A DNA stretch of 64,000 nt from the NCBI GenBank assembly GCA_903813345.2, contig CAIIXF020000008.1:71341-135340 (forward strand), read 5' to 3'. This document shows, in pieces, positions 821 to 49,468 of this stretch. Numbering within the stretch: the first letter of the stretch is position 1; the number at the start of each line of letters is the position of its first letter. Below the pieces are notes generated by a model that did no database searches, was not told where the DNA came from, and was given only the letters and a program-made list of their open reading frames with translations. This DNA comes from Owenia fusiformis. Its lineage: Eukaryota; Annelida; Polychaeta; Sabellida; Oweniidae. Made by a program: the position numbers and the translations under genes.

Positions 821-984
821 TTACTCCCCAAGTTCATATTTATACTCTAAATAGTCCATCATTAAATGTGGCAGTATTGGAGGTTGACAAGTGGACAGCT
901 GAGAGAGTCTTTCTTTGAACTTCGTAGTTCCCAGGCTTCTTCTTATTTTGCACCTTGATAAATGTTTAAGACCCTTTGGAGACC
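821..984 (-). CDS. ASB3: ASB3-like coding exon 8 (SOCS box, stop)
   Basis: Encodes GLKHLSRCKIRRSL, then LPHLMMDYLEYKYELGE and a TAA stop at 821-823. The acceptor is 'tttacag'. The order 'H-L-C/S-R ... I-R-S-L ... LP..L..YL.Y' matches the C-terminus of ASB3. It is too short to have shown up as a long open frame and was found from the splice phase. Confidence 0.8.
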
Positions 985-3900
985 CTGTAAATAAAATAAA
1001 ATAAAAATTCTTTGATCACTGGTTTTGTCGGACATTCCCATTTGAACTCATGGTACCTTCCAAGTTCACCTTAAACATCTATGTTTGTAGCCTTCCTATC
1101 GACTCCAAGTAAGAATTTGGAGAGATATGTTTTAGAAGGAAATTTATTCTGGTTTAAATATGTGTCTTCTATTTGAGCATGTTACTTTGGTAAGGTTAAA
1201 TGATGCCCAGCTCTCAGCTCTCCATAAAAACAAATTCATGAAATTGGTTTTACCATGTCATCAAATAGTTTAAGCCAGAGGCTTTACAATGTATGTTAAT
1301 CAGTTGAAGTCATCTTTTGAGTTTAAAAATTGCCTCACTAGCTTTTTCATGAAGATAGGTGTGTCGAGCTGATCCAAAACTGCCTGATGCTCTGAATATA
1401 ACACCAAGATACTTGTATTCTTGAACAAACCAGAAGTCTACCAAATGAGAAATAGTCAGTAGGAAGATGTACATTATTTTGAAATTGAATTATCTTCCTC
1501 TTATTTTATATTAATATTGAGTCTCCACTCGTCATAAGAATCTTTAAGTGAGTTCAGAGATCATTGTAATCCTTGCTTTGATGTTGAAAATATATCATCG
1601 GCCTACAAAAACATTTTAATATTTTCATTGTCTATAATTGGGCTATAGTCATTTAGTAATAAATCAAACAGATTGGATGACAATGTATCCCTTTTTTTAC
1701 ACAAACATTGGTCACTTTGAATATATATTTTACAGATTTACAACAGGGTGGCATGTTTTTTCAGATTTTCAAATCAGCTGGCATGTTTTTTCATATTTTC
1801 AAATCAGCTGGCATGTTTTTTCAGAATTTCAAATCAGCTGGCATGTTTTTTTCAGATTTTCAAATCAGCTGGCATGTTTTTTCAGATTTTCAAATCAGGT
1901 GGCATGTTGTTTTCTGATTTTCAATAGGTTTGCATATTATTTTCAGATTTTCAATCAGATGGAGTGCGCTGATGTTCTAATGCTGAATAGATCAAAGGAA
2001 AAAGAAAATGTTGCAGATAACCTACATAGACTCCTTGCTTTCCCAGATGTAGTCTCCCCTGTATGCTGATAACACCTGTGCCAGAATATCATCATTATTT
2101 CTCTCTCTCTACCTTGGCTATACTGGGGGTTCGGGGGCGTAACATTATGTTCCAAAAGTACTCTAACTGCAGTTAAATTCTTTACCATCAATGCTAACTT
2201 TAAAGCCATGGACATATTGTCAATTATTCTCACACTAGGGTGGTGTACTTCAACATCAGCTCCATATGTTATAAGAAGTTCCAGAATGTCTTTGCCAACA
2301 TGCCGTATGATTGCAGCCAACAAGGGAGGCAGTTCAGTGTCTTTGGTAGAGTTAACGTGAGCTCCACTATCTAGTAGAATCTTTACCATATTTGGATATG
2401 CAGTAGATCCGTGGTAGTTACTCAATAATGTCCATGTAAGAAATGTAAATTCTGTGCAAGATTTTTGAAAGGGTCTTGTGAAAATACTATTCTCCAAACC
2501 ATGATAGGTAACAGATTGGCTGTTAATGTCATAGCCTCTTTCAATGAGTTGTTTGAGGCAGTCCCCATTGTTCTGATCATTAATTGCAAACTTAAGGGGA
2601 GTCCCTACAGCACACTTGCAACAAAGGTCTATGTCTGTCACGTCACATAGCAGTCCTACACACCTGGAAAATAACATTAAGTTTGATGAGAAATTAATCA
2701 AAGATTAATTAATTGTTAGAACACAATTTTGATGGCCAATTTTGACAAATAGCAATCTTAGTTCATTATATATGCTAGCAGCTAACCCTACTATCACACC
2801 AAACTAGTTTTCTTGAAAACGGGCTTCAACTGTGTACGAACGGACTAGACGTAATTAGAACCGTTTGGGGTCTATTTACAAACTTCATCGAACATACTCG
2901 AACGGGTAGGTCCTCTAGAACTCAGAACATGCTCAAAATGTTCTCATGGTCGATACGTTCTACAATTAGAACGAGTGACAACGTACTAACGACGAGATGG
3001 ACGTACTACGAACAGAACCGTCGTACTTCAATCCTACAAGGGACGTTTTAACAACGAGTTGAACTGTCTGAGGACGTATTGAGAACGAGGTAGAACTAAT
3101 TGCAAACGGGTTTAAACTGATTAAGAACGTATTTAAGACTGCTTATGAATGAACGAGTTATCAAAAATATAGCTATCACACCAAACAAATTGCCACTGCG
3201 TTCTTCAAAACTGGTTTTAAACTGTGTGCGAACGGAATGAACGTAGCTGCAACTTTCTAAGGTCTATTTACGAACTTCATGACTTTCTCAGATGGGAAGG
3301 TGATTTTAGAATTTTGAATCGATTCAAAATTCGATGGTGACCATACCGTTCTGTAATCAGGTCATGATGACCTTCTAGACTAAGGGACGCGTTATACGAC
3401 GTTGCACACCGACCTGGTGAGAACTGAACGAACTGCGAATGAGATGGACGTATTGAAGACTGTTTATGAACGAAGTAGCTAATTATTTTAGACATATTTC
3501 CCGACCACAGCCAGATTGAGCCCGTTTTACGACTTTTTAATAGGACTGGCAAGCACAGGTAAGAACTAGTTTGGTGTCAAAAACATTTTTCAAAAATCTT
3601 GCACAATTCATTATGAGAATACCATGGGCTTTCAACAGACAGTCTCTTGAAAGCCCATAGAAAATACAAATGTTTTATGAAATAGATATCAGTCAGAGTA
3701 TAGAGCATGGAGGCTAGGCTAAGATAGATGAGTAGCTTCTCTATATACACTTTTAACTTTGCTCTATGGGATACTAAAACTTGAATTGTTATAGATGGTA
3801 CAGGGTGTCCAAAATATAGGACCAAATAATAACTCCATCAATTTCACATATTCTGCCTTGACATTTCTGAATTAACTATACCGTTAAAAGATTTTTTGAA

Positions 3901-6900
3901 AATTCAAATGCGTGTATCAAATCCTTCAATATACATGCACATGTACTTATTGATAATCTCTTTATTGACCGAGTTATTCAACTTTTCTTCAGTCCTGTTT
4001 CTTGGACACCCTGGCCCTGTAGTATTAAACATGTAAAATATCTGCACAATATACTTTTAAATTTTCCTACTTACTCTTTATGAGCAAACTGTACAGCAGC
4101 ATGGAGTGGCATGGCCTCACAATCTTTCTCAGATGTTTTAAAATGAGGATCAGCTCCCTCTTTTAGCAGGATCTGAACACAATCAGAATTTCCATTCTGG
4201 GCACTAAGGTACAACGGAGTAGCCCCATCTTCAGCCTGCTTGTCCACTAAATACCCCTGGCCTTGAAATGTATAAATATGCACATGTAATTTGAGTGTTG
4301 ATTGTTGTAAGGCTAATTGATAATATGCACTTAGCTAACTCCTGGCCTTGAAATGTATAAACATGCACATGTAATTTGAGTGTTGATTATGTTGTAAGGC
4401 TAAATGATAATATGAACTTAGCTAACTCCTGGTCTCGAAATGTATAAATATGCACAAGTATTTTTAATGTTGATTATGTTGTAAGGCTAAATGATAATAT
4501 GAACTTAGCTAACTCCTGGCCTTGAAATGTATAAATATGCACATGTATTTTGAATGTTGATTATGTTGTAAGGCTAAATGATAATATGAACTGAGCTAAC
4601 TCCTGGCCTTGAAATGTATAAATATGCACATGTATTTTGAATGTTGATTATGTTGTAAGGCTAAATGATAAAATGAACTTAGCTAACTCCTGGCCTTGAA
4701 ATGTATAAATATGCACATGTATTACATACCTAGCGAAGCATTTGTATGGAAGTCAATGGGAAAGTTAGCGAGCTATATCCACCGATATTGCCCGATTACC
4801 CCGATATAGCCCGCTTACCTCGTTTTGATATAAGATTTCTTTAATAACCATGATAATATCATGACGTCACGTAATTGATACAAAGTAACCATGGGAACAA
4901 AGGCATGTAATACATCAGTTATGTCACTATGACGTGAAATATGCCTTCCTTCTTGCCCAAATATAGAGCCTCCCAAGGTCGGCCTATATTGGGAGAACTC
5001 AGGCATATTTCACGTCATAGTGACATAACCTCTAAGTATTTTGAATGTTGATTATGTTGTAAGGCTAAATGATAATATGAACTTAGCTAACTCCTGGCCT
5101 TGAAATGTATAAATATGCATAACTATTTTGAATGTTGATTATGTTGTAAGGCTAAATGATAATATGAACTTAGCTAACTCCTGGTCTTGAAATGTATAAA
5201 TATGCACAAGTATTTTTAATGTTGATTATGTTGTATAGGCTAAATGATAATATGGACTTAGAAATGTATAAATATGCACATGTATTTTGAATGTTGATTA
5301 TGTTGTACAGGCTAAATGATAATATGGACTTAGAAATGTATAAATATGCACATGTATTTTGAATGTTGATTATGTTGTACAGGCTAAATGATAATATGGA
5401 CTTAGAAATGTATAATATGCACATGTATTTTGAATGTTGATTTATGTTGTATAGGCTTAATGATAATATGAACTTAGCTAACTCCTGGTCTTGAAATGTA
5501 TAAATATGCACAAGTATTTTTAATGTTGATTATGTTGTAAGGCTAAATGATAATATGGACTTAACTAACTCCTGGTCTTGAAATGTATTAATATGCACAA
5601 GTATTTTTAATGTTGATTATGTTGTAAGGCTAAATGATAATATGGACTTAGCTAACTCCTGGCCTTGAAATGTATAAATATGCACATGTATTACATACCT
5701 AGCGAAGCATTTGTATGGAAGTCAATGGGAAAGTTAGCGAGCTATATCCACCGATATTGCCCGATTACCCCGATATAGCCCGCTTACCTCGTTTTGATAT
5801 TAGATTTCTTTAATAACCATGATAATATCATGACGTCACGTAATTGATACAAAGTACCCATGGGAACAAAGGCATGTAATACATCAGTTATGTCACTATG
5901 ACGTGAAATATGCCTTCGTTCTTGCCCAAATATAGAGCCTCCCAAGGTCGGCCTATATTGGGAGAACTCAGGCATATTTCACGTCATAGTGACATAACCT
6001 CTAAGTATTTTGAATGTTGATTATGTTGTAAGGCTAAATGATAATATGAACTTAGCTAACTCCTGGCCTTGAAATGTATAAATATGCATAACTATTTTGA
6101 ATGTTGATTATGTTGTAAGGCTAAATGATAATATGAACTTAGCTAACTCCTGGTCTTGAAATGTATAAATATGCACAAGTATTTTTAATGTTGATTATGT
6201 TGTATAGGCTAAATGATAATATGGACTTAGAAATGTATAAATATGCACATGTATTTTGAATGTTGATTATGTTGTACAGGCTAAATGATAATATGGACTT
6301 AGAAATGTATAAATATGCACATGTATTTTGAATGTTGATTTATGTTGTATAGGCTTAATGATAATATGAACTTAGCTAACTCCTGGTCTTGAAATGTATA
6401 AATATGCACAAGTATTTTTAATGTTGATTATGTTGTAAGGCTAAATGATAATATGGACTTAACTAACTCCTGGTCTTGAAATGTATAAATATGCACAAGT
6501 ATTTTTAATGTTGATTATGTTGTAAGGCTAAATGATAATATGGACTTAGCTAACTCCTGGCCTTGAAATGTATAAATATGCATAACTATTTTGAATGTTG
6601 ATTATGTTGTAAGGCTAAATGATAATATGAACTTAGCTAACTCCTGGTCTTGAAATGTTAATATGCACATGTATTTTGAATGTTGATTGTTGTATAGGCT
6701 AAATGATAATATGAACTTAGCTAACTCCTGGTCTTGAAATGTATAAATATGCACATGTATTTTTAATGTTGATTATGTTGTAAGGCTTAATGATAATATG
6801 AACTTAGCTAACTCCTGGTCTTGAAATGTATAAATATGCACAAGTATTTTTAATGTTGATTATGTCGTAAGGCTAAATGATAATATGGACTTAACTAACT

Positions 6901-9900
6901 CCTGGTCTTGAAATGTATAAATATGCACACGTATTTTTAATGTTGATTATGTTGTAAGGCTAAATGATAATATGAACTTAGCTAACTCCTGGTCTTGAAA
7001 TGTATAAATATGCACATGTAATTTGAATGTTGATTATGTTGTAAGGCTAAATGATAATATGAACTTAGCTAACTCCTGGTCTTGAAATGTATAAATATGC
7101 ACATGTATTTTTAATGTTGATTATGTTGTAAGGCTAAATGATAATAAGAACTTAGCTAACTCCTGGTCTTGAAATGTATAAATATGCACAAGTATTTTTA
7201 ATGTTGATTATGTTGTAAGGCTAAATGATAATATGAACTTAGCTAACTCCTGGTCTTGAAATGTATAAATATGCACATGTATTTTTAATGTTGATTATGT
7301 TGTAAGGCTAAATGATAATATGAACTTAGCTAACTTCTGGTCTTGAAATGTATAAATATGCACATGTATTTTTAATGTTGATTATGTTGTAAGGCTAATT
7401 GATAATATTAGTGGATGAGCTCGGACCTCTTTTTTACTCACACTATTGCATTTTTGTAATTATGTTAATTATTTGTAGTTTATCATTTCTCATTGATTTT
7501 GAAAATAATAGGGTCTAGTTTTTCAGCCTCTTCGAATAATTGCCATTTATACCCTCCTTGCTACTTTTATGAGGGGGTAATACGATAAACATCAATAATT
7601 TGTGTTATATATCTCCAATCAAATTTATATTTCTGGGGAGTATGTATCTATATATAGAAAGTTCCCATGACAAGTTTGATCATGCTTGGTCAAGTGGTTG
7701 CCATGGCAACACAACTTGAGTGCGAAAAATTGTAAATATTTTGCATAAATCCACCAGTTCTTTAAAAGGTAAACGACTGCTAATCTCTTTGGATTGCACC
7801 AATCAGCATGAAGTTGACTCAAAAAACATATTTAAGGAGGTTTCAATGAAATAACATGATTAAAATGATTAATTGAATGATATCTATGACTCTAGTCCAT
7901 AACTCTATTTGGTCACTATCATTCACATTGCTCAAAAGTGGGCGTGGCACTTTTAAGTAACTATCTTGAATAATTCATGTTATGTACCTCCAATCACATT
8001 CATACTTTCAGAGAGTATATATGTATATATAGTTAGTTGATATAGCAAGTCTGATCATGATTGGTGAAATGATTGCCATGGAAACACAACTTACTTATAA
8101 AGAAGTATAAACAATTGGATAAATCTACACATAGTTCCAGATTGTACCAATCAATAAAAAGTTTTTTTGAAAACATGTTATAGGAGTTGGTTTTAAGAAA
8201 ACATGACTGAAATCATCTATTAGTCAATGATATCAACTCATGGTTAATTAATAAACAGAAACTACTCTGTGTTCTTATATTCACCCCGGAATAGCCTGAC
8301 AACGGTAAAGTCAGATACCGTTGACACAAATGGCAGACATAACCGTCGCTTCAATTAGATTTTCATGAACTGTATGTTTAATAGAGCACCTAGACTAAAT
8401 CCCTTTGGAACAACAATCAATCAAAGTGTCTTAATACTCATTGTACGGTTAATAATGTTCTACCATCGAACTAAAGTCTTTAATTTTACCGACCAAAATG
8501 AGATACGGGACAACGGACATTGTAATTATTACCAAATACCATTGTCTTTCTAAATTACTCAAATTCAGATTCCGTTGTCATTGACAATATCGAAGACGCT
8601 ATATTGTGGCGATTCACGACCCAATTTGATGGAAAATGGGATTTCATATTATGCATTATCACAAGAGCTTAATGCATGCACAGAATTAGTGGCGATAAAA
8701 TCCCATGAAATGAAAACCAAGTGATTAGACAGTTGAAGCGATGATTATGTCCGTCATTTGTGACAACGGTATCTGACTTTACCGTAGTCAGGCTATTCCG
8801 GTGTGATATTGACAGATCTTAACACATTCAGCCTTCTATAGCAATTGTACCTGTTTTGTGATAAATAAAAGAAATATCAAAAGGGAAATACAAGAGAAAC
8901 TCGAGCAAAATGTCAAACTGATACTGCATCAACGTCTATATTGAATGCAGTCATTGAATAAGACTGGGCCCTGCATGCAAAAATAGGTGGACGTTGCATA
9001 GTTTCTGCAGAAGCAATGTACCATAATTCATGCAGAAAATATTACCTGGCCAGTAAACGCCAAACCACAAATACATGTAATAAAGTAATTGATTCATCAT
9101 TCACATTTATTAGCAAATATATGCTGAAACGGTGTTGACTGGTGGTCCCATAATTGTTACATTAGACTCTCTTCACAATATGTTCCAAACACATATGAGT
9201 GAACATAATCCAACCAAACCTACACCAAAGTACAGAAGGTTAGATAACTTCAAAAGTGGACCTAGTATTTATTTTGGGGAATAATCTCAATTTCTATCGC
9301 CCAAAAGAATCTTCATTGAAAAATGAACTTGTATTTGGCAATTTAAGGGGCATCTCCGAAAAATCTATTGCAGAGGCTTTTCATAAGAATATCAATTCAG
9401 AACAAGATCTACTGACCAATGCTGGGTCGCATCTAAGACGCATCATATTAAATGCCAAAACAAAATACCCCTCATTTAATTGGCCCCCAAGAACATCAGA
9501 ACTTGCAAATAGAATGTACAAATTCATACCAAATGTTCCTAAGGAATTTTTAATGAATCTCTTCCAGAGCAATGAGAACAAGATATTAAATGAGAAACAA
9601 CAGCGGCTGCTGCATTCTATTGCACAAGAAATTTGTCTCGCAACTTCAAATGGATCATTCAGATTCATTTCAGATACCAAAACATTATTTACTAGCCCGG
9701 ACACGACACCATCTCACAGGTATTGCCGACATTGTTACATTAATGAATCGTAATGGACATTGTCTGGCCTACACTGAGGTGATGCAAATCGAAACAGCAG
9801 GCTGTGAAGACATACAGAACAATGTTTCTAACTTACCCCACCATACTAATATGTACAGGGTGTCCCGAAAGTATGAGCCCGCTAGGCAGACGCGTACGTA

Positions 9901-12900
9901 TACAATGTCTCCATGGTATGTGCCATATATCATTTTAAAGCTTATGCAAAGTTACATTGATTTGCCAAGTATCATGGTTCAACTCACAAATGGTAAAAAG
10001 TTACAGGCATTTCAAAACTTAATAATGTTTGGCCAAAAATATAGTTCATTTTAGTATCCTGGAAACAGCCCTGACCTGAATATGACCATTAATATGGGTG
10101 CTATTGACGAATATAGGATGGATATTGAGTTCTAAAAAGAGGACATTAAGGGTAGATACTCCAATGAAACTCTTCTAAAATGGCTTAACAAATTTTTTTG
10201 AGGATTACAAAATGCCACATCCCTATTTGAAGCGCGTTAACGGGTCATATATGAAAAACATTGCTGCTGTTAATATGGTCTAGGGAGACACAAATCAATG
10301 TATCTTTGGATGATCTTTAAAATGATATAGGACACATACTATGGAGACATTGGTATATGTCTGCAGAGTGGGGGCCCCGGTGGGGCATACTTTTTGGACA
10401 CCCTGTAGTTAAGCTTATTAAATAAGGACATAATATGATGTATATCATAGAAATTAAAATAGTATTTTAAAGAAAAACAGTTAACAATACAGAAATTAAT
10501 CTAAATGAACTATGTATATATCTATCTACCATCTCCACACAAGCCAAACAAGTATATTTACAAAGAACAATGCCATTCATTTGTGTTACCATAGCAACCA
10601 ATTACCAATAATCATTTAAATCATGCTGTTTTATTGACCAAAAATGGTTTTGAACACAACTTTATTTTGATTGGTTTAAGAGATTAGCAGTTACTTGTTA
10701 ATCTGAAATAGCTACAATTGTTTGCATGCACGTTTCCATGGCAACCATTTAACCAAACATGATCAGACTTGCTATATCAACTCACTATATGTATATCATA
10801 AAATTAATCATTTTAGTCACATTCTCTCATTCAAAACTCCTTCAATATGTTTTCAAAGTCAACTTCATGTTGATTGGTACAATCCGAAGAGATTAGCAGT
10901 CGTTTACCTTTTAAAGAACTTGTGGATTTATCCGAAATATTTACAATTTTTCGCACTGAAGTTGTGTTGCCATGGCAACCGCTTGACCAAGCATAATCAA
11001 ACTTGTCATGGAAACTTGTAATATATAGATACATAATCCCTAGAAATATGAATTTGATTGGAGGTATATAACAGACATAATCCATGCTTTTCATAGTACC
11101 CCTTCATAAATATAGCCAGGAGGGTATAAATGGCAATTATTCGAAGAGGCTGAAAAACTAGACCCTATTATTTTCAAAATCAATGAGAAATGATATAATA
11201 CACATAATTAACATAATTATAAAAATGCAATAACGTGAGTAAAAAATTGGTCCCAGCTCATCCACTATATGCACCTAGCTAACTGCTGGCCTTGAAATGT
11301 ATAAACATGCACATGTATTTTGAATGTTGATTATGTTGTAAGGCTAATTGATAATATGCACCTAGCTAACTGCTGGCCTTGAAATGTATAAACATGCACA
11401 TGTATTTTGAATGTTGATTGTTGTATAGGCTAAATGATAATATGCACTTAGCTAACTCCTGGACTTACCCTGCGTGCAGAGTCTAGATAAACTACACTCT
11501 GCCTAGTAGAGACCATATTACAGTTTAGTAGCCCTGCCCCCTCGACGGGTACCGGTGACAGTTTGGGTAATAAATCACTTTTGACCTACGCGCTGACCTT
11601 TCTTCCACCAATCAGCGAGCTTGAAGAAACATACGCCAAATGCTTTCTAATTAAATATGCGCATGTCATTGGTCAATTCCAGGCTCAACGATGACGTCGG
11701 AAGGAATGACCATATATAGAACGTCGGTCAAATTTGACCGACGAACACTGATTGGCGCGGGGAGTTCACAGGTTTATTTTAGTTTGAAAGAGTGAAGACG
11801 AAGCTCTCTTTTAAGAAGTAAAGTCAAACGAATGCAAATGGTATCCTGGACTTGAAATGTATAAACATGCACATGTATTTTGAATGTTGATTGTTGTATA
11901 GGCTAAATGATAATATGCACTTAGCTAACTCCTGGCCTTGAAATGTATAAACATGCACATGTATTTTGAATGTTGATTGTTGTATAGCCTAAATGATAAT
12001 ATGAACTTAGCTAACTCCTGGTCTTGAAATGTATAAACATGCACATGTATTTTGAATGTTGATTATGTTGTAAGGCTAAATGATAATATGCACTTAGCTA
12101 ACTCCTGGTCTTGAAATGTATAATTATGCGCATGTATTTTGAATGTTGATTATGTTATATAGGCTAAATGATAATATGAACTTAGCTAACTCCTGGTATT
12201 GAAATGTATAAATATGCACAAGTATTTTTAATGTTGATTATGTTGTAAGGCTAAATGATAATATGGACTTAGCTAACTCCTGGTCTTGAAATGTATAAAT
12301 ATGCACAAGTATTTTTAATGTTGATTATGTTGTAAGGCTAAATGATAATATGCACTTAGCTAACTCCTGGTCTTGAAATGTATAATTATGCGCATGTATT
12401 TTGAATGTTGATTATGTTATATAGGCTAAATGATAATATGAACTTAGCTAACTCCTGGTATTGAAATGTATAAATATGCACAAGTATTTTTAATGTTGAT
12501 TATGTTGTAAGGCTAAATGATAATATGAACTTAGCTAACTCCTGGTCTTTAAATGTATAAATATGCACATGTATTTTTAATGTTGATTATGTTGTAAGGC
12601 TAAATGATAATATGAACTTAGCTAACTCCTGGTCTTGAAATGTATAAATATGCACAAGTATTTTTAATGTTGATTATGTTGTAAGGCTAAATGATAATAT
12701 GAACTTAGCTAACTCCTGGTCTTGAAATGTATAAATATGCACAAGTATTTTTAATGTTGATTATGTTGTAAGGCTAAATGATATTATGCACTAAGCTAAC
12801 TCCTGGCCTTGAAATGTATAAATATGCACATGTTTTTTTAATGTTGATTATGTTGTAAGGCTAATTGATAATATGCACCTAGCTAACTGCTGGCCTTGAA

Positions 12901-15900
12901 ATGTATAAATACAGTAAAACCTGTCTTAGTGAACACCTCTCTCTAGTGAACACCTGTCCCTAGTGGACACCCTTCCTATGCACATAGTCCACTGACTTCT
13001 GTATAAATTACCCTCTCTCTAGTGAACACTTACCTACAGTGAACGTTTTTTCTTGGCAAAAAAATGTTCACTATACACAAGTTTTACTGTATGCACATGT
13101 ATTTTGAATGTTGATTATGTTGTAAGGCTAAATGATAATATGCACTTAGCTAACTCCTGGACTTGAAATGTATAATTATGCGCATGTATTTTGAGTGTTG
13201 ATTATGTTGTATAGGCTAAATGATGATATGCTCTTAAAGGGTAACACATATATAGTTCTCTCAAAAGCGTTAGGTAAAGAGGGACTCTGATAAATCAGAA
13301 TGGTAACAAATATCATTTAGCAAATCAAGCCCTTGTTTTTGGTTTTGCTCACTGTTTAGTATAAAATGTGTGATCTCGGAATAATACTCAAGGGTACACA
13401 GGCTGAAGTCACTGACTCATTCGTTTAAATAAATCAACATGCAAAAATACAAATTATACCTGCTGCCTTGGCACTTCCTATAAGGTAGCTTAGTACATGG
13501 GCGTGGCCAAACCTTGCAGATAGGAACAGGGGGGTCATGTTGAAGTCTGACACTGTGTCTTGTATTGCACCATATTCTAGCAGTAACTTTACAATACCTG
13601 AAATAATGAAGATAAACACATGGATGTGACTAAACCTTATGTTGAGCAGCCCTCAGTTTATTCGTTTACAATTCAAACATAAAATAAACCACTTTGTCTT
13701 TTTCTTATTATACAATTACCTTTATGCCCCTGCCCTGTAAACCTTCAATTTATCACACTCCCTTCAATTGCTAAAACACCTTCCATATGTCCCACTCACT
13801 TCCCGCCTTTTAATGTTCACATCTCCCACATTTTTGCCCTAATACCTTATACACTAACTACTATGGCAGCCACTTCATTTATGCTCAGAAAAATACGAGT
13901 TCCAATAAGATGAAAACTGATGTTTGCATGTTTGCTTCCTTGAATCAAATACTACCCAATTGTATGATTTGGTTATACATGTACATGTATTTGTTTTCAA
14001 ATCATTGCCATTAGTGTCCTATGACTGAAACATGTTCTACATAATCAATTCATTCATGTAAGCTCCAGCCAGTTTATAGTAAATATTATTATATTGTGAG
14101 TGATATTTAAACCTGATGTTTGTTCTAATTACAGCATGAAAAAGTAAAAAAATTCTTTGTATGAGCTTTTCTAGCCCTTTGATGCATCATGACTCCAGCA
14201 TCACTAAGCTTTTACATATTATATGTATATATTACAAGAATCTCTGATAAAACAATAAATTACTGAAAGACTGCCAAAATTTGAACTCAAATCAGTCCAA
14301 AAGCTTTTTCATGATTTTGCGTGATTTTTTTGACATTTATCATATACACAAAAATTGAGTGTGCGATTTAAATTTTTCAAGCAAATTCGTGACAAACACA
14401 CGTAGTGTGTGAAGGTTAACAGGGCAAGATGCCTACTCAACATAAAACATGGGCTTTGTATAAAAACCTCATACCCACCTACCCACGTACGTTGGACATG
14501 ATACATTCTTTGAAGGGTTCAATTTTAAAGATGTTTGTTTATTAAATCTTAGTTTATGATGAATTATAGATGCATTTGTAATGACCCTTGATAGCAAGTT
14601 GCTACTACAGCCCAGCTGGGTTCGATTCCCACTCGGGCATCGAATTTAGCACACTTTCTTTCAATTTCTTTTTCTGGCTTGTTGAACCTATGCTCGCGGT
14701 CGTTAGTTATAGTTATTTCCCTGGGGCGCCCTCAAGTCATTACACATTACAATACACCCATATGCCTTTATTTATGGATCTGTCATCCGTCTAGTCATTA
14801 AATAAAGCCGGAATTGTAGAAATGTTAATAATAAGAGCAATTTTGAGATTTAAAAATCTTTAAAATTGAACCCTTCAAGGACTGTATCATGTCCCACATA
14901 GGTGGGTAGGAGGGTATGAGGTAGGAGGTTTTTTATACAAAGCCTAAAACATGCTTCTACAGAACTGAATTAATTACTGAGATGCGAGTAGGTAGTTACC
15001 AGTTTCGCCACCAGGTGGCTAATTCGGGAGAAATAACATTGCGGTGTATTACAAAGTTCCCTTAAACTTGAATAATCATCAGTTTTAGTGGCTCACTTTT
15101 CATATTACCCTTACAGGTATGTATCTGATAGTTGTACAAATTAAAATATGTCCAGTAAAAGAAAATATTACCTGCCCAACACAAGAAAAGATATTTCAAT
15201 TTTTCTGATTTTACGACATGGGGTCTATGGGGAATCTCCCGACCTTGAAATAACATTTTCAAAGAAAATTAAATTTTCAAACTTGATAAACTCTTTTCAA
15301 AACCACATTTCTAGATGTAATTTTACATGTTGATTCCAAATATGACATCAGTTTGACTGAATTTTGAATTAATGACGTAAATCAAGATTATTTCTACTCG
15401 CATCTTAGTTAGTCTATTTATATATTTCATAACATTTACCTAAATTGCCATTTGAGGCAGCTACATGTAGAGGGGCATCTCCAGTGTACTGCTTCTGGTC
15501 AGCATTCCCTCCATGCCTTAACAGCTTCTCAACCATATTCATACTGCCTTGCAGTACAGCTAAAACATCACATAACAAAATATGCCAGTCCCATAGCCAT
15601 GGATTTATTTAGGTTTCTTTTATTTATTTATATAAAACATAATAACATTTGTACATATTCATCGCCAAAAATTATTTAAAGTTGTCAAAAAGTGAACCCC
15701 TTGGAATTTCTTAAAAAGTGAACCCCCTTGTAAAATCCTGGATACTGGCCTGGGTAACAATATGCTATAAAATAAATATCAGCTATGTATACTGTAAAGG
15801 CAGATGACAAAGCAGATGCCTAAATAGTTTCTGACAGGGACCTTAAACCCACTCACACATTAATGCTTTGTCCTGGTAGAGAAGGACTCTTGAATTCTAT

Positions 15901-25786: not shown

Positions 25787-25837
25787 CAAGAATCCACGTA
25801 GTTCCAAATGTATAATGATACGGCAAATAGGCTGTAC

Positions 25838-25955
25838 ACAGGCCCGTAGCCAGGGGGGTTCGGAGGGTTCCCGGTCAAAATTCTTTCAAAATAAGTGACT
25901 TTGGAATTTTTGAAAAAGTGCCCCCCCCCTTGGGAAATCATGGCTACGGGCCTGG
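25838..25955. mobile_element. Short 'caggcccgtagccaggggg' MITE
   Basis: 118 bp with ends 'caggcccgtagccagggggg' and 'catggctacgggcctg', and internal runs of G and C. A longer degraded relative is at 30355-31342. This end type is common in invertebrate genomes. Confidence 0.7.
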
Positions 25956-27245: not shown

Positions 27246-27774
27246 ATTTATGTGCCATACATCTACAAAGTAGCAAACTATACTTTAGTCTGTTGAAAGC
27301 CCATGGTACTACTTTTCAAAAAGGTTGTATTGACCCAGAGTCAAAGTGCTACAACTTCCTGTGTGTCTCACAGGAATTCGTCTAGAAGAAAAAAGAAGTC
27401 AATAGAGCAAGCCTTGACTCAATGAGCATATGATATAAAAGTAAACTTCCCTGTGGGGTGTCTTCTTTCTACAGTATACAATTGAGTGGGGCTGATCTTT
27501 GAACTATTGAACTCTTGTATCTGGGCCTGTGAGTATTGGAGAAAGATAGTGCTGACTCCGATGCTGACCAAACAACAGTCCACACAAATTTCAAAAAAAT
27601 ATTTTTTACCTTCGTCCACCATTTTGGGATTCCCTCTTCAATGTACCACGTGATCATTCCCAGGGTGCCTTTCAAAAAAGAAGGTCTTCTTCGTTCTAAA
27701 AAATATTTAGATTCAATACTCAATCCAAAACAACATAGCACACACTCGGACATTAATAACATTAATCGGAAACG

Positions 27775-27936
27775 ATGCCTGATCATAGAAAGACTGTAGA
27801 GGAAAAGAAGTATGCGATTTTGACCAAGGACTCGATCCAAACGATGGGGGAATCCGTCGGACTTTCTGAAATTTCTGAAGAAGTTGCAGCAAATTTGTCT
27901 GAAGATGTCAGTTATAGGTTGAGAGAAATTATTCAG
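27775..27936 (+). CDS. TAF6L: TAF6L coding exon 1 (histone fold start)
   Basis: MPDHRKTVEEKKYAILTKDS through VSYRLREIIQ. Donor 'ATTCAG|gtataa', phase 0. The ATG at 27775 is the first in frame with the fold and stands at the expected distance from it. Confidence 0.9.
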
Positions 27937-36900: not shown

Positions 36901-39900
36901 CTTCGTGATGTCATTGTCCTGATTAAAGTCAATTGCTCTGCAAAATTATGTAACATTAATAGGGTCTGGCTTCTGCATTGTATAATAACTTATTAAATAT
37001 AGGCTTTGTATAAAAAAACTTGTACCTTATGCCCACGTACCCCCACGTACCCACGTACGTGAGTCGTGATACAGTCTTTGAAGGGTTCAATTTTAAAAGC
37101 TTTAAAGGATTATCCGAGCAAGGGGAACAATGATTTTAGTCTCGGGAATCGTAAATTTATCCCAACACGCGAAAGTGTAATTGTTTGCTCAATTGTGGAT
37201 GGTTATTCCGAATTAGATGACGGGGAGAGTACTACACCCATAAAGACAAGGTTGTAATGCAACCTAAATGTGGCAATAAAGTCACACCTTAAAGACGACT
37301 TTCTGGAAATCCCCAGCAAATGAAAAACGTGACAATTTTAGTGAATATTGCTTCTAGTGAACGAGCATTAATAGATAAAGGATCCGTCATACTAAGTATA
37401 TAAAACTGCCCCCAGGTCATTCATGACCATTATGACATATAATATGGTATTTAGTAAGGCGTTAATTATGGCATAGTGTTCAGGTGTTATTGAGGCCATA
37501 GTGACCTTGTATAGGTCAAGTCAGTGCATATCTGATAATAAAAGATTCTTGGGTGCAAAATCATTGTTTACAAAATTTAAAATGTGAAATTATGATAAAG
37601 AATGTTGCAAAGGACAATTTTGACCTTAACCTTTGATTTTCATTTCATTTTTTTGTTTTATTATTTTATTTGGTTCCATTGACTTAGCATATGGATATCA
37701 GCATGTATCGACTTGATGATATCCTGATGTTAAGTCAATTATTCTTTCAAATGAGCTGGGTATAATGCTCCTTCTTAACCTTGGGACAGCCTTATCTTGA
37801 CATTCTAGGCAGGTTACCAATTTCCCTTGAGTTATTATTCAATTGTATAGTTATATTCTTAATCCACTTTGTACATTTGTAGCACGAGTATAGTCAACAT
37901 CCAAAATGGTACAAAATATTTCGAAGAAAATGCTCGACATACAAGTATACACATATTTCAAAGGAAATGCGTGACATACGGAACTCGCGTTTGGTGACAT
38001 TTCATTGAATAATTCTATTAAAGGTCTATTTTTTAAATCTTTTACAGATTTTCTTTGTAAGATAATAGAAATTGTCTAAAATAACATGTATTTATGATGA
38101 GTCAAAACAATCAGTTCATTTCTCCAAACAGGAGAGCCATCTTTTATGTAAATTCAAATGCTGTTACCTACAGGGCCAATAATGCCTTGGCTTAGGCCCT
38201 GTTTATGCTGTATACCCTGTATTAAGACTGTTTAAATAAAGGAACCATATAAACTAAACTCGTGTGAAAAGTCCGAACGGAATGCGTTCGCCTTTTTTCG
38301 ACGTGCACTAATGTATTTACAATTCAGCATAGACGAAGATTGAATGATCTTATATTCAAAAAATTGAACCCTTCTAAGACTGTATCATGCCCCACGTACA
38401 TGGTTTCGGGACGTGGGTACGAGGTACTAGGTTTTTGTACAAAGTCTTGAATATACGAGAGTACAGGAATGCATAGTATATAATAAACAATTACACATGA
38501 AAACATGGAGACTGGTATCCATGTCGTGTATTCAAAAATTTGTACCGACACCATCATACAGAATTTCAGAGTTGTTCAGACACCATCATTTTTCGAAACG
38601 AAAAACAGTCATATCTCAAATAATATGCGTCTTCTGCTTGTCAATTTAGGTTCATCTGAAAGACTGAGATAGTATACATAAGTGGGGAGAAATATGACAC
38701 TGTTAACAAAATATAAATATGAAAAATATTCATTTATCTGGCTTAATTGAGAAAATCGTACAGCTTGTTCAGACACCATCAATTACGAAGGTCACGTGAT
38801 GACAATCCCCACCGTGTACAAGGAGTTACTCTGACTCCACAACAGTTCTGACCCTAACACATTTTCACTAAAAAATAAAGATATTTGAAACTTAATATAA
38901 CAAAAAGCTCAAGGCAACCTAGGGTGCAGTTACTAAACCTGATATGAACGCTTCCTGTTTTAAATTAGTAGATTTTATATAAGTTTGTTAAAATACAAAG
39001 AGCAAACCATAATATATAAGGAAAGCACTCTGTTATAAAGAGATCTGTGTGTTCTAACATACCAAACTCCGTGGCAGTGCTAGTCTTCAACAGCTAGAAG
39101 TTCAAATCTGACTTTAGATTTGAGATTTGACCTTCATTGGCATTCTCAATGTTTAAAAAAGAACTTTTTAGCTTCTAATTGACAATTTTTTTCAAAATCA
39201 TCTACAAGTTATCAGAATGTCAAATATTACTTTAAATTTGACCTTCATTGACTTTCTCAAGGTTAAAAAAGTCAAAAAGGTATTTTCAACTTGCTTCAAA
39301 TTGACCATTTTTATGAAAATCATCTAGTAGTTCTCAAAAGTTCAAATCGGACTATAGATTTGACCTTCAATCAAATTCTTAAGGTCAAAAAGATATTTGA
39401 CCTTCTATGACCTTCTCAAGGTCAAAACTTAATTTTTCCACCTTCCTTCAAATTAACCAATTTTTTCCTCAAAATCATCTACAGATCAATAATATTGTGA
39501 GCAACTACTGTAGGTGGTGACATTTTGTCATGTTTTTGCCTTGTTTCTTCATCTGCCTGCCGCAGTTTTCTACACCAAGACACTGCTTGGGAGTTTGCTA
39601 ACATACATGTACTTGTGGCTATGAATTCATGAATTTTGATATACTTGACTGCAGTGGTAGTAAGAGGTATACAATTTGCCCAGTCAACCTCTGGAAAGGT
39701 CAATAATCACAATGTTTATGTTTTGTACTCATAGCCAGCTGGTTAGCTGTAGAGGGGATGTACAGGGGAGCAGCTCAACCTCCAGGTGCAGTGAATATGT
39801 TATTTAAAGTATCAACTACTATATGTCAGTCACATAGAAATTTTGGTTAATTTATTTTACAAAACTACAAAATTAAAGCAAGCCTATCAACTCCCTCTAA

Positions 39901-42900
39901 TTAATTATACAGAGGTGTTTACCCCTGGAATGCCTTACCACTTTTAGATAAACCATTATCTTACCACCAAGAGCTCCTGAAGTAGTCTAGTGTCTTATTA
40001 AGTAGTTTGAATTAAAGAACACTTCAGACTCTTGGCAGTCAATTTAAACTAAAAAATCATATGAACATATGAATCTCTCAGTGCCTGTAATTAGCCTTTT
40101 CCAAGAGACTGAAAGCCCATCCCTTACCCTTTTCTCACTGTCTTAATAAAAGAGTTACCACATATAAAATTTTGCATACTTTAATTGCAGTTAAGCCCCC
40201 TGACAAGGTCCCTAAGCTGGTGTCCGAAGACCTGATTGTTTACTATGACAACATGACTAAAGCCATATTAGGGCATGACGAGGAATTGATGAAGATAGCA
40301 CTGACTGATCTTCGAACTAACACCAAGATAATCCCTGTCCTGCCATATTTCATCAACTTTGTCAATAGTGGGGTATAATTGGTTTTAAGATTTCATATGA
40401 GATCATCAATGAATTAAATCAATAATTTATTGGGGTAGAGGTGCTCACACCCATGTCTTTCAAGTACCAAGGAGAGTTTGTAGTGCCTCTCTACTGTTTT
40501 AGCTTACAGGGTGGTCAAAAAAATGGAAACCCTGCATTTTCCTAATATCTTTGTCATTTTAAGGAATTACTCCCTGATATTTCAAATATTTGTACATCAT
40601 TCAATTTCCTACCACTCTTCCTCATATATTTGTCATTTTAAGAAATAACTCCCTGATATTTTGCACATTTGTACATCATTCAATTTCCTACCAGCCTACT
40701 TTATTTCATGACCATCAGACTGATAGTCACAATTTTACAGCACTTTGAATAACATGCTTCAAGTTTGGCCATCATCGTGCTGTAGGCAAACCTGCACAGT
40801 TATCAATAGGCCAAATGCATTCCACAGCAGGTATGGCCTGAATGATACGGATGATCTCACTTTTGAGGTTTGTGATTGTCCTGAGGTCATTCTCATACAC
40901 TTTTTCCTTGCCATATCCCTACAGGTAGGGACATTTTGGACGGCGAGTGCAGGTGGCCCGACAGGGCAATAGTGGCCCCTGGGGCACGTTCTTTAAAGTG
41001 CTGTAACATTGTGACTATCAATCTGATGGTCATGAAATGAAGTAGGCTGGTAGGACATTGAATGATGTACAAATGTGCAAAATATCAGGGAGTTATTTCT
41101 TAAAATGACAAATATATGAGGAAAATGGTGTAAGGGTTTAAATTTTTTTTACCACCCTGTACTTAACATGAATTTTTATATCTTATGAAATACACAATTC
41201 AAACAAGTTAAAACAAAAAGTATCAATCAAATTAGTGATGAGAAAATTAATGATTTGATAATATCCCCTGGCCTTTTACAATCAGTAAGAACAGCTAAAA
41301 TGATTTTCTTTTTTCTCAAATCTGTGGGTTACAGAACGTGTTTTGAACTTTTTTAAAAGGCTAGAAAAGTATCATAACATTAAGGTATTGACATAAAACT
41401 TTATTTACAGAAACTTAAGGAGAGGCATATTTTACAATTCAAATATTAAGGCTAATACTGACTTCAAATTTTTCGTCAGATCTTTGAATATCAATGGTGC
41501 ATTTTTCATATGTCTGAGATTTACCATTTTTCCTAGAAAATGTGACTATGATTTTATGTGATCAACAATAACACATTCTTTATGTTCACTAAATCTGCTT
41601 TAAACTTTGTTGACTGTTTAACCAATGTCTGGTAGTTTTATATCAGTATCTAGTAATACTATGATATAATCTTATACTGTATTTATTAATTATTTATTTT
41701 AAACAAATGCTCTATACATCCACCTTTCGCCTTCACTATCGCGCGTAGAGGCTCGAGGAGGGTGGAACTGGTCATTGATCCAGCGATTCTTGTGGTAGTT
41801 TTCTCCACTTCTGCAGAACTTCTTTTAGTTGATTAGTAGTTTGTTAGGGATTACGATTAACTGCAATATGCTGCTTCAGGTGTCCCCATGTGTGAGAGTC
41901 ACAGGGGCTGGCACCTGGTGTATTAGGCAGCCATTCATCAGGGTTAATGAATCGTGGGGTATTCTCCTCCAGATATTCCAAAGTGACCCTTGACCGATGG
42001 CTGGGAGCGATAGTGAAGGTGAAAAGCAGATGCAAAGAACATTTGTTCAATAAATAATTAAAAGATACAGTATAACATATTATGCACCTCATTGAGATAC
42101 TCAAATCTGATTCGTTAAGAGCTGCAGGGTCTATTGCCATACGTGGCAGCAAGATCTCGTTCTATCCAGTATTGAAGCAACGAGATCTCCAACCATCCCA
42201 TGTGCCAGAATACCTATCTTTGAAAAAAAAATACTAGGCTCGGCTTCTGTTTATAGTAGACCCATTCTTTAAAATAAAGTATTTCTTGACAATTTAACAC
42301 CATCTTTTATTTATCTACAGTAAATTAATGGTAGGAAAATGATATTAACTAAGGGAGGTGCATAATAGAATAAATACTGGATGACCATGAGGTGGATATG
42401 CCAGAATGCCTATCCGAGGAAAAAAATACTAGGCGAGGCGAAGCCTTTTTTAATACCAATGGTGGCTAGATACTGATATAAACCTGAACTAGATATTAGT
42501 TAATTATTAAAGTTTGTGGCAGGTTTAGTGAACATAAAGAATGTGTTATTGTTGATCAAAAACATCATAGAAAGTCACATTTTCTAGGAAAAATAGTAAA
42601 TCTGGGACATATGAAAAATGCACCATTGATATTCAAAGATCTGACGGAAAAAAATATAAGCCTATATATGCTATATATGCCTCTCCTAAAGTTTCTGTAA
42701 ATAGATTTTTGTGTCAATACCTTAATGTTATGATACTTTTCTTGCCCTTTAAAAAAAGGATGGATTTTGTGCAGATTCAGTTATAATTGTCACGTTTTTT
42801 TATTTGACATTTGAATTTAAAAATTTAATAATGCATTGTTTTATTTCAAGATGAAGACTGTGAGTCATGACATTGGTCAGCTGACAAAGTTACTACACAC

Positions 42901-45900
42901 AGTCAAGTCAATTATCAACAACAGGTCCCTCTACCTTGAACCTTTAGCATATGTGAGTATTATATACAGTATTAAATACTGCCTATGTAAGTATTACAAG
43001 TGAAATACTGCCTATGTAAGTATTATAAATGAAATACTGCCTATGTAAGTATCACAAGTGAAATACTGCCTATGTAAGTATTATAAGTGAAATACTGCCT
43101 ATGTAAGTATTATAAGTGAAATACTGCCTATGTAAGTATTATAAGTGAAATACTGCCTATGTAAGTATTACAAGTGAAATACTGCCTATGTAAGTATTAT
43201 AAGTGAAATACTGCCTATGTAAGTATTATAAGTGAAATACTGCCTATGTAAGTATTATAAGTGAAATACTGCCTATGTAAGTATTACAAGTGAAATACTG
43301 CCTATGTAAGTATAACAAGTGAAATACTGCCTATGTAAGTATTACAAGTGAAATACTGCCTATGTAAGTATTATAAGTTAAATACTGCCTATGTAAGTAT
43401 TATAAGTGAAATACTGCCTATGTAAGTATTATAAGTGAAATACTGCCTATGTAAGTATTATAAGTGAAATACTGCCTATGTAAGTATTATAAGTGAAATA
43501 CTGCCTATGTAAGTATTACAAGTGAAATACTGCCTATGTAAGTATTACAAGTGAAATACTGCCTATGTAAGTATTACAAGTGAAATACTGCCTATGTAAG
43601 TATTATAAGTTAAATACTGCCTATGTAAGTATTATAAGTGAAATACTGCCTATGTAAGTGTTACAATGAAATACTGCCTATGTAAGTATTATAAGTGAAA
43701 TACTGCCTTTGTAAGTATTACAATGAAATACTGCCTATGTAAGTATTATAAGTGAAATACTGCCTATGTAAGTATTACAAGTGAAATACTGCCTATGTAA
43801 GTATTATAAGTGAAATACTGCCTATGTAAGTATTATAAGTGAAATACTGCCTATGTAAGTATTATAAGTGAAATACTGCCTATGTAAGTATTATAAGTGA
43901 AATACTACCTATGTAAGTATTATAAGTGAAATACTGCCTTTGTAAGTATTACAAGTGAAATACTGCCTATGTAAGTATCATAAGTGAAATACTGCCTATG
44001 TAAGTATTATAAGTGAAATACTGCCTATGTAAGTATTATAAGTGAAATACTGCCTATGTAAGTATTACAAGTGAAATACTGCCTATGTAAGTATTATAAG
44101 TGAAATACTGCCTATGTAAGTATTATAAGTGAAATACTGCCTATGTAAGTATTATAAGTGAAATACTGCCTATGTAAGTATTATAAGTGAAATACTGCCT
44201 ATGTAAGTATTACAAGTGAAATACTGCCTATGTAAGTATAACAAGTGAAATACTGCCTATGTAAGTATTACAAGTGAAATACTGCCTATGTAAGTATAAC
44301 AAGTGAAATACTGCCTATGTAAGTATTACAAGTGAAATACTGCCTATGTAAGTATTACAAGTGAAATACTGCCTATGTAAGTATTATAAGTGAAATACTG
44401 CCTATGTAAGTATTACTTAGCCATTATGTCCCTATCATTGAATATATGCCTGAAGTCTGACGTCAATATAGCCCGAGCTTGCGAGGGTTATATTGACGAC
44501 AGACTGAAGGCATATATTCAATGATACGGACATAATTGATGTATTACATACCTAAAGTACATTTACATTGCATTCCTTGAAGGTATTATGTAGAATAATG
44601 CGTGAAAAAAGACTAAAATTTTACAGATTCCAGTTGAAATCACTTTGTTTCCATGTTTTGACATCATACAATTGTCATGGTAAAAAAGTTCGGCGGCTAT
44701 ACAGGAATATATAGCCGTCCTTCAGCTCCATTGACTTCCATACAAATGCTACGCTAGGTATGTAATACAATGAAATACTGCCTATGTAAGTATTATAAGT
44801 GAAATACTGCCTATGTAAGTATTACAAGTGAAATACTGCCAATGTAAGTATTATAAGTGAAATACTGCCTATGTAAGTTTTATAAGTGAAATACTGCCTT
44901 TGTAAGGATTACAAGTGAAATACTGCCTATGTAAGTTTAAGTGAAATACTATTAAAGGACAACTGAAATAGCTTTTCTCAACTTGCAGCTACGAAAATGC
45001 GGTTTTCTCCATTGTAAGCCCACCGTAGAGTTCTTGCGATAGCCATTATAAAATAAATGTTAGATAACTGCTAACGGTCATAGATAACGAAATAAAATTA
45101 ACTGATAAATCAAATTGGCCCCCACGTGATTAGTAACGTCATATACAAAATATAGCTTTGGTTTATTGGTTCCATAGTAATCACAACGTCACGGCAACCA
45201 TAGGATTGTTGTGTAAACAAATAACAAAACATTTTGGCATTATGACGTCATGATCTAATGGACCAAAACGGGCCACGTGGGGACCAGTGAGAGATCACGT
45301 GGGGGCCAATAACGTCACAACCAATTCGAATATTGCTTATTAAGCAGCTATAACGATCGTTAGAGTGAAATAGTTTTCACACTACTGATGAGAAAACATG
45401 TCCAAATACATCTATCAAAAAATTATATTGATTCCTTTAGGTTAAAAATACCATTTCATATCTGCTTTAAATATGTTCATCTGGATAGTTGCATATGATA
45501 TCCAAATGAATTAAAGAGGCTATTTACATCAGGGTACATATCTCCAACATCAACAGAGATATATAAGGGCAATCACGAACTCAGCCCACTTTCGGACAAG
45601 TTGTTGCAAATTCAACCAGCTAACACCCTTAATTCCCAACCGTCACACTTCCTTAATGGAGCTCTTCACAAACACTCTTCACTCGCAAAGTCAGCAAATA
45701 ATACATGTAATATCTACATCATATCGGCTTAATAACAATTAAAAGTGTATTTGTTGTTCTAGTTGGATGGTCTGCTACAATGCATTCTCTATTGTATATT
45801 GGAGCCTCTAGCTGCTTCTATTAACCCCCTCAATGACCACTGGGCCCTGCGTGACTATGCAGCTAATCTGCTAATACATTTAATAAAGTAAGTTAGTCAA

Positions 45901-48900
45901 ACAATTTATATTTCTCTCATGGAACTGATGTAACATTCCTGTTCAGACAATATCGTTCGACTTATAAGTACCTTTTTGTAAGTGTTTCTATTGAATCAAG
46001 TGATTGACATTTTTGAAGACAGAAATGTCCCTCATGCAAGAGTAATATTTGTCCCTTGCAAGAGTAATATTTGTCCAGAATTGTAATTGTTCCTTTGGAA
46101 GAATTGTATTTGTCCCTTGCAAGAATTGTATTTGTCCATTGCAAGAGTAATATTTGTCCCTTGCAAGAATTGTATTTGTCCCTTGCAAGTGTTATATTTG
46201 TCCCTTGCAAGAGTAATATTTGTCCCTTGTAAGAGTAATATTTGTCCCTTTCAAGAATTGTATTTGTCCATTGCAAGAGTAATATTTGTCCCTTGCAAGA
46301 ATTGTATTTGTCCATTGCAAGAGTAATATTTGTCCCTTGCAAGAATTGTATTTGTCCATTGCAAGAGTAATATTTGTCCCTTGCAAGAGTAATATTTGTC
46401 CCTTGCAAGAATTGTACTTGTCCCTTGAGAGTGCAATATTTGTCCATTGCAAGAATTGTATTTGTCCATTGCAAGAGTAATATTTGTCCCTTGCAAGAAT
46501 TGTATTTGTCCATTGCAAGAGTAATATTTGTCCCTTGCAAGAATTGTATTTGTCCATTGCAAGAGTAATATTTGTCCCTTGCAAGAGTAATATTTGTCCC
46601 TTGCAAGAATTGTACTTGTCCCTTGAGAGTGCAATATTTGTCCATTGCAAGAATTGTATTTGTCCATTGCAAGAGTAATATTTGTCCCTTGCAAGAGTAA
46701 TATTTGTCCCTTGCAAGAATTGTACTTGTCCCTTGAGAGTACAATATTTGTCCATTGCAAGAATTGTATTCGTCCATTGCAAGAGTAATATTTGTCCCTT
46801 GCAAGAGTAATATTTGTCCCTTGCAAGAATTGTACTTGTCCCTTGAGAGTGCAATATTTGTCCATTGCAAGAATTGTATTTGTATGTAACATTGCAGTGG
46901 TTGGAGTAGCCCTTTAAATGGATTATACAAGAGATGCAGTGAAGCTCTAAAGCAGGCCCTCTATGATGCAGCCAAACCTTTATGTTCACATTATGGTGCA
47001 ATAGTGGCTATACTAGCTTTGGGAAGCCAGGTGATTATACCCTTGGTTATTCATTTTCATGCCATCTAACAAACAGATCAAACATCGAGATAAAGACATT
47101 TCAAAAAAAAGAAAGTCTGTGCTGAGCAACTTTTTTGTTTTAAATTTTAAACAAAGAATTTTCCATCGTTACGTTAAAGGATGAGTCTGGGTATTGACTT
47201 AAAAAATATTGAAAATTGTAATGTCTGAAAAACCAACTCAATCACACATATTATTAAACTTCAATATCTTATCCTTCTTCTGAGAGTACAAAAATATCAA
47301 TTTGTATTACATTTAATGAAGAATATTGGCATCAAAGACAGTGCATATCACTTTGTCAGAAATCAAGGGCAAATATTAAATGAATTATTTATACAAAAAG
47401 TTTGAAACATATCCTCTAAAACATTGCTTACTTTTTTTTGTATAGACATTGAATGGTATTTCTGGATAAGTGAATTGGTGTTTATCTGGATAATCAAGGG
47501 ATTATAGTCACTCAAAGTTACTGAGCATCCAGTTTTGAGACTTCAATTGTGTTGGTGAAGTTGCACATATTTCAATCAAATTCATGCTGAGCACAACATT
47601 TTGGTTTCAATTTTATAATCTCTATACATGACCCTGGTGATGAAGAGTAGGAATCAGTCAAAAAACCTAGACCAGAAAAATGTGCTCATTGTGAAAACTA
47701 AAAGTGAAGCAACTTTTTTTCTGATATTTTTCTTACATCAAATAGCAGCCATCTTGTTTTTCCCCCTTCAAATTAAACTGGCGGGAAATTCAAAAATTTG
47801 AAAAAAAATTAATCCTTAAATATATTTCAAAAATATGATTTTGTTTTTAATTCTTCATGGGTCTTTGGTTATTTCTTCTTTGTAAGTCATACATGTTGCC
47901 ATTGGTGTTTTTTCAATGATAATGACTATTTTTTGTTTTTGTTTGTTAAGATACCTATTCTGACTCTCAGCAGGGGGTTAATTATGCATCAGAACTCGTG
48001 AAAAAGTAAATATACTATCAAATATAACTAGGACAGTAATAAAAAACATATTTCATAATATATAATCCATCACAAAATTGTTCACTAAAATTGCTAATTT
48101 TACTCAATTGAACACCATCTGTTGTGTATGTATGTCGTTAAAATGTCAAAAGCTGTCAAAAATGGAAAATTATCTGGTTTCAACCTATTTTAGAACCTGG
48201 AATTCAAGAGGTTAATAGGTCATCTCTTATCTTCTATTAGATTACCTTTTTTCTGTTTCAGGCAATATCTGAGATTCTACTTCCCCATATCTCCACCTAT
48301 TGGCCACACCTGACATCTATTATGGAGGACCAAACCTACACCAACTGTCAGGTGAAGACTGATGCTCACAGAGTACATGCTGTTCTACTGGTATGATTAA
48401 CACCATCAGCCACAGTGGTTTAACTATATAGACTGAAGTAAATTCAGTCACATATTCAGGTTAAGTACATGATGGAGAAACCAGAAATAAAGTGACACTT
48501 GAGTTTATGAAATTTATTTTTAAAATAAAAATTATATTAAATTAGTGAAGCTGATTTTCCATTTTATGCAATTCCAGCTGGCATGCGAGTGTGTTTTGAA
48601 GTCCAAAATAAATGAAGCTCTTGCCGAACAAGATGAGCCCCCTACAATAACAACAAAAACAGAGCTTATATCAATAACAAATACTGAACCTTCAACTACA
48701 ACTTCGCAAGTTCCCTTGTTGGATGCCATTAAAGTAGAACCAGGTGACTCTAAGACTCTAGAAGAAACTGGAATATTCCAGTCAGGTGTCCTCCTGGAGC
48801 CTGATCGCGCCCAGAAGACTCCTATATCATTGAACGATTTATATGCAGAACTCTATGGCTATTTTGGGGACAGCTTAGCCACAAGGCTTCCCCAGCATCA

Positions 48901-49468: not shown

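Follow-up and report, generated by a model that had tools for sequence, protein, structure and literature searches.

The tandem arrays closest to those described here are the mirages of amphioxus, for which a 2002 paper by Canestro is said to be the original account. A human minisatellite that provides splice donors has short units and is likewise located at an exon–intron border. It concerns a single gene and, by the title of the report cited in PMC2572611, provides extra donors to the transcript. The excerpts available from two papers on amphioxus (PMC3087553, PMC3902484) describe mirages as minisatellite-like tandem duplications across the exon–intron boundary, at 5′ or 3′ borders, in Adh3, the globin genes BflGb6 and BflGb9, TnC and PGBD5. 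According to the same excerpts, the units vary in length, the AG or GT signals are kept in many, though not all, of the copies, splicing is undisturbed, and the arrays are polymorphic in length. Internal tandem repeats in human segmental duplications, as presented in excerpts of PMC2812944, arise by minisatellite expansion in recent primate paralogues; half of them are in coding sequence, and those at exon–intron boundaries are linked to the formation of new introns. In the literature searched, mirages are described in just a handful of amphioxus genes, with no report found outside amphioxus, and the excerpts of an annelid paper on first-intron minisatellites (PMC12783039) mention no junction-containing arrays. 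The arrays reported below, for which the initial annotation of this DNA knew of no named system, match the amphioxus mirages as these appear in the excerpts of PMC3087553 and PMC3902484.

Arrays at the splice junctions of two Owenia fusiformis genes

The window (the whole stretch of DNA analysed) comprises 64,000 nucleotides of Owenia fusiformis, positions 71341–135340 of the forward strand of contig CAIIXF020000008.1, in an assembly of 498 Mb, nine of whose large contigs are 35–62 Mb long; the regions fetched from this genome have a GC content of 33–37%, compared with ~41% in amphioxus. The GC content, the large chromosomes (amphioxus has 19–20) and three above-threshold matches to the erythrocruorin linker family PF16915 (best E = 5 × 10⁻⁷), which is not known outside annelids, point to an annelid rather than to amphioxus. 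Searches for the GFP family, which amphioxus possesses, and for COX1 yielded no match, a result that for GFP falls short of proving absence. Pfam matches identify gene 1, on the minus strand, as an ankyrin/SOCS-box gene and gene 2, on the plus strand, as a member of the TAF6 family (PF07571 in the 40091–40378 frame). The exon models of the window were built by hand with phase-consistent GT/AG borders; like those of the sample described below, they are based on protein alignment, reading frame and splice signals without transcript support, and some are weak. Gene 2 was modelled outside 32.4–40.2 kb, and reading suggests a possible exon near 39733–39798, so the 7.8 kb taken here as the length of the intron that carries the 54-bp array may be an overestimate.

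Seven intronic arrays had been proposed to lie at splice junctions, four of them containing the junction, and Tandem Repeats Finder (TRF) together with the gene models places all seven as proposed and bears out all four junction-containing cases (77, 87, 54/69 and 29 bp). The clearest of the four is the array of ~12 copies of a 77-bp unit (20507–21427, minus strand, TRF), in which the unit consists of the last 56 bases of an ankyrin-repeat exon of gene 1, the donor CATG/GTCAGT (the slash marks the splice junction) and the start of the intron. The exon (21372–21471, minus strand), defined by a Pfam ankyrin match and phase-consistent reading, has its 3′ end inside the unit. The match around the donor is 45/45, and GT is kept in all 11 aligned decoy sites.

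The 87-bp array of gene 1 (4256–13250, minus strand) is interrupted by other sequence. TRF finds it in five pieces (4256–4723, 5033–5692, 6002–7408, 11267–11466 and 11844–12911), and its outer copies can be followed by reading to ~13250. Its exon-proximal end holds the acceptor TTTCAAG/GCCAGG of the downstream ankyrin exon (4074–4261, minus strand; acceptor picked by reading phase), a motif of which the intron holds 32 copies. The two junction-containing arrays of gene 2 carry donors, as does the 77-bp array. A 54/69-bp array (32361–33005, plus strand, TRF) contains ACACCA/GTATGT at the end of exon 2 (32280–32366, plus strand), by reading part of the histone fold, with ACCAGTATGT present in 11 copies. 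Downstream of another exon (42851–42952, plus strand; reading and exon model), ~50 copies of a 29-bp unit extend over 42974–44415 (plus strand, TRF), with a second piece at 44771–44950. The donors GCATAT/GTGAGTATTATA and GCCTAT/GTAAGTATTATA agree here at 16 of 18 positions, the unit's TAT/GTAAGTA resembling the exon's TAT/GTGAGTA, and 53 TATGTRAGT sites are found in 42941–44960. The exon content of this unit is insecure, since just five of six exon bases match.

The three other arrays had been said to abut a junction and to resemble it. All three are near one, but the resemblance is unclear for two of them. The ~42 copies of the 56-bp unit (15931–18272, minus strand, TRF) start 6 bp from the donor CCAAG/GTAAAA of an upstream ankyrin exon (18279–18431, minus strand; Pfam and exon model) and show partial similarity to it, with AAGGTAAG occurring 12 times and AAGGTCTGA 35 times. 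The 148-bp array (27961–28574, plus strand, TRF) begins 23 bp after a donor that lies outside it; inspection by eye revealed nothing convincing in the way of junction resemblance, and a genome search shows that its unit carries pieces of dispersed elements. The 22-bp array (46026–46883, plus strand, TRF) ends 14 bp before an acceptor, also outside the array, and shares just an 11-bp intronic match with the junction. A 30-bp array (1749–1962, minus strand, TRF), absent from the initial annotation, lies 56 bp after a donor and belongs to a dispersed family.

The units had also been described as unrelated to each other and not explained by a shared satellite family, and this holds: none of the 28 pairs among eight window units are alike, and the junction-containing units have no matches outside the window among the candidates scored. 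In genome searches, which skipped very common words and scored the best candidates only, all six matches of the 77-bp unit fall at its own locus (2/2 candidates scored), the 87-, 54-, 56-, 29- and 22-bp units have no match outside the window among the best 40 of 42 candidates, and relatives of the 30-bp unit turn up on other contigs among the same 40. These comparisons support the view that the junction-containing arrays were seeded locally. Elsewhere in the window, positions 1000–1400 have 13 matches in the rest of the genome at 69–75% identity; to judge by these matches, gene 1 harbours an old dispersed element here, in its last intron. An open frame at 54892–55212 reads as hAT/ZBED-type transposase-like and includes an in-frame 27-bp repeat.

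Junction-containing arrays in independently chosen loci

The pattern extends beyond the two genes for which it was first noted. A sample of 22 loci was chosen by Pfam hits before their repeats were known (eight aldehyde dehydrogenase (ALDH) and four class-I aminoacyl-tRNA synthetase loci, then ten acyl-CoA dehydrogenase loci), and its exons were modelled by aligning E. coli homologues with a custom spliced protein-to-DNA aligner. Modelled exons shorter than 40 bp, outer alignment borders, repeats with a period below 10 bp and arrays with less than half of their length in a modelled intron (e.g. large arrays upstream of the first modelled exon of A7) were left out of the counts. The sample contains 187 introns with a median length of 390 bp and 34 intronic arrays with a TRF score of at least 100, nine of which straddle a junction. 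Eight of the nine are private to their loci; the ninth, in A8, overlaps its junction by 3 bp and belongs to a dispersed family. The private straddlers come from four of the 22 loci (five with A8), with three of the eight in R12 and two each in R3 and R6, and the events may therefore be non-independent.

The longest of these arrays is found in the gene closest to E. coli IleRS, where ~52 copies of a 91-bp unit contain an acceptor and 57 exon bases. The same gene has a 40-bp unit repeated 25 times, which takes in an acceptor and 24 exon bases, and a third array in which a 32-bp donor unit occurs 16 times. In an ALDH gene, a 113-bp unit that includes 92 exon bases is present four times. When the junction is aligned to a more distant copy, the alignment covers 17–20 of 20 exon bases in six of the eight private straddlers, eight in R3_28 and ten in R3_52. 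The exons at R6_113, R12_40 and R3_28 are conserved coding sequence, sharing 18 of 31, 18 of 32 and 22 of 43 residues, respectively, with E. coli. Alignment is weak for two exons, with 6 of 29 identical residues at the 91-bp array and 5 of 18 at the 41-bp array. Among the acyl-CoA dehydrogenase hits, one region (C1:35555500–35564499) has two matches to the same C-terminal part of the domain PF00441, at model positions 96–149 and 96–148 and ~500 bp apart, possibly a duplicated exon.

When the window and sample sequences (353 kb in all) are compared with each other, eight of the 34 sample arrays emerge as dispersed, the junction-touching array of A8 among them. R3_28, flagged solely at R2, a paralogous locus of the ALDH family, was treated as private. 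All 84 genome matches of the eight private units and one abutting unit are at their own loci (9/9 candidates scored). The genome search with interior sample units, where 40 of 2392 candidates were scored and one family was dominant, decides just the case of the 138-bp unit, which is present at unlinked loci. This unit forms a tandem pair at 21575–21829 of the joined region L008–L010 and belongs to a very abundant dispersed family that dominated the query with 2392 first-look candidates. In R10 (L015–L018), the gene closest to E. coli ValRS, a 91-bp satellite (19872–26305 and 27120–29487 of the joined region) takes up most of an 11-kb intron; its blocks run in opposite orientations, and it has no relatives within the sampled sequence.

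The decoy splice sites change like the remainder of the unit. GT or AG is kept in 103 of 109 decoys, where ~100.5 would be expected if these sites were conserved to the same degree as the remaining unit sequence, a count that excludes the 87-bp row and takes 51 of its 109 decoys from one array; in R3_52, AG is lost in both decoys. With regard to concerted evolution, a further feature of mirages, decoy copies have a mean identity of 0.87–0.98 to the functional unit. The unit length is not a multiple of three in 11 of 13 units, so splicing at a decoy would in most cases change the reading frame, which would imply accurate site choice. A possible haplotig, C290, considered in a check for length polymorphism or somatic instability, is not allelic to any fetched locus.

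Placement and probable origin of the arrays

The junction-containing arrays are probably mirages, that is, minisatellites born of random tandem duplication and tolerated since the exon-proximal splice site is the one used, with room for a two- to four-fold excess at junctions. Tandem duplications appear to be frequent in the introns of this genome, and a short segment (~20–150 bp) that happened to cross an exon–intron border would have been duplicated in tandem. Duplications confined to an exon would presumably be purged by selection, and intronic or cross-junction ones would persist, their extra copies being removed by splicing. The spliceosome would continue to use the exon-proximal site, presumably via exon definition, and the copies would multiply and become alike, as minisatellites generally do, through slippage or unequal exchange, with the intron growing from its end.

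The verdict on a junction excess depends on the null chosen. When each array is placed wholly inside its own intron, 8 of 30 arrays in 12 loci lie within 5 bp of a junction against 0.58 expected (P = 1.7 × 10⁻⁸); this null forbids straddling and was dropped as too harsh. A shuffle over the whole gene span, in which long arrays land across exons, was judged unfair as a null; its result goes against the initial annotation, with 9 of 30 arrays within 30 bp and a mean of 11.1 in the shuffles (P = 0.88). The preferred null allows the founder duplication anywhere that splicing renders it harmless, borders included, and accounts for about half of the sample straddlers (4.7 of 9, P = 0.023; per-bond ratio 2.0, CI 0.9–3.8). 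Without dispersed families, eight straddlers stand against 3.7 expected (P = 0.011), and the per-bond ratio is 3.1 (CI 1.3–6.1), or 4.0 (CI 1.5–8.8) in introns up to 1 kb. Under the same null, the sample has six straddlers among the strong arrays (TRF score of at least 300) where 4.2 are expected (P = 0.21) and ten arrays within 30 bp of a junction where 7.3 are expected (P = 0.14), neither excess being significant.

The window was picked for the pattern and its statistics are biased, which makes the independent sample the fair test. Seven of 20 window arrays are within 30 bp of a junction, compared with expectations of 0.90 when arrays are confined to their own introns (P = 7 × 10⁻⁷) and 1.77 when founder units may straddle (P = 2.7 × 10⁻⁴), and three of 20 straddle a junction against 1.04 expected (P = 0.07), some of the window borders behind these counts being 2–4 bases off. 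The per-bond ratio for straddling, with a few borders corrected by 2–4 bases, is 2.6 (CI 0.5–7.6).

The initial annotation had proposed a local mechanism acting at splice sites, such as R-loop repair or slippage at transcribed junctions, which would make junctions true hot spots at which arrays start in step with transcription or splicing. What survives of this proposal is an excess of roughly two- to three-fold, weak overall. The residual excess in the sample and its per-bond ratios favour such a start, as does the clustering within 30 bp in the window, although the window was chosen for it; interior arrays were checked for dispersal within 353 kb, so some may yet be dispersed, and their removal would raise the excess. 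The founder-placement null is exceeded at P = 0.01–0.02 and two- to four-fold per bond, and purely random placement may therefore be incomplete. Against a hot spot, there are as many donors as acceptors (4:4) among the private sample straddlers, and the exon share of the unit ranges broadly from 0.19 to 1 and is not centred on the site (sample-only KS test against uniform, P = 0.22; the test on 13 arrays takes in the W54, W29, W56 and W87 rows, whose site is mis-set or unaligned). The whole-gene-span shuffle, the strong arrays and the 30-bp distance count in the same direction. These data are more readily accounted for by random breakpoints and neutral decoys than by a process that targets the splice site; a modest real excess of two- to four-fold is possible but not secure, and junctions as hot spots are the less likely explanation. 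It is likewise rather doubtful that in this annelid, as in amphioxus, junctions give birth to minisatellites several times as often as positions elsewhere in introns. If they did, introns in two or more distant animal lineages would be growing at their ends through duplication of the splice borders they already carry, and the affected introns would acquire dozens of rival splice sites of almost identical sequence, along with material from which new introns could form.

The order of events could also be reversed, an older intronic minisatellite with splice-like motifs having captured the junction, with the exon end moved into the array. The 87-, 54- and 29-bp units hold the splice site and only 3–7 exon bases at the array end, as a slight displacement of the junction would allow. 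The 77-bp unit and several sample units, however, contain tens of conserved coding bases, and in the 77-bp array, R6_113, R12_40 and R3_28 the exon is older than the array because its part of the unit is long and conserved; a captured junction is improbable as an explanation. Insertion beside junctions of dispersed satellites or of transposons with internal repeats holds for the 148- and 30-bp window arrays and for the eight dispersed sample arrays, including that of A8, but is very improbable for the junction-containing arrays, as the 77-, 87-, 54- and 29-bp units and the eight private sample units have no match outside their own loci among the best candidates scored.

Comparison with described systems

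If the arrays are read as mirages, they would contribute measurably to the growth of introns and perhaps to intron gain. Introns with up to ~50 nearly identical donors or acceptors are natural tests of how the spliceosome chooses a site: near-identical copies leave sequence unable to decide, so position must.

The human donor-providing minisatellite differs from the arrays described here in being confined to one human gene. The internal tandem repeats of human segmental duplications are not described, in the excerpts of PMC2812944, as private arrays that copy a junction, which the arrays reported here do. The likeness to amphioxus mirages is closer. In the 77-bp array and the eight private sample arrays, the unit spans the boundary and the intronic copies carry exon bases; in this respect the 87- and 54-bp arrays, with 6–7 exon bases, and the 29-bp array, with its five of six matching, are weaker cases. 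Donor and acceptor borders are both affected, four of each in the sample, and the units vary in length and are unrelated between loci, as the window pairs show. Unlike the amphioxus mirages, the present arrays belong to an annelid genome, occur in two window genes and in four of 22 sampled loci (five with A8), and reach up to ~52 copies. Their presence here would take the phenomenon outside chordates, and straddlers in 9 of 187 sampled introns of so distant a phylum suggest that mirages are a general outcome of frequent tandem duplication combined with splicing.
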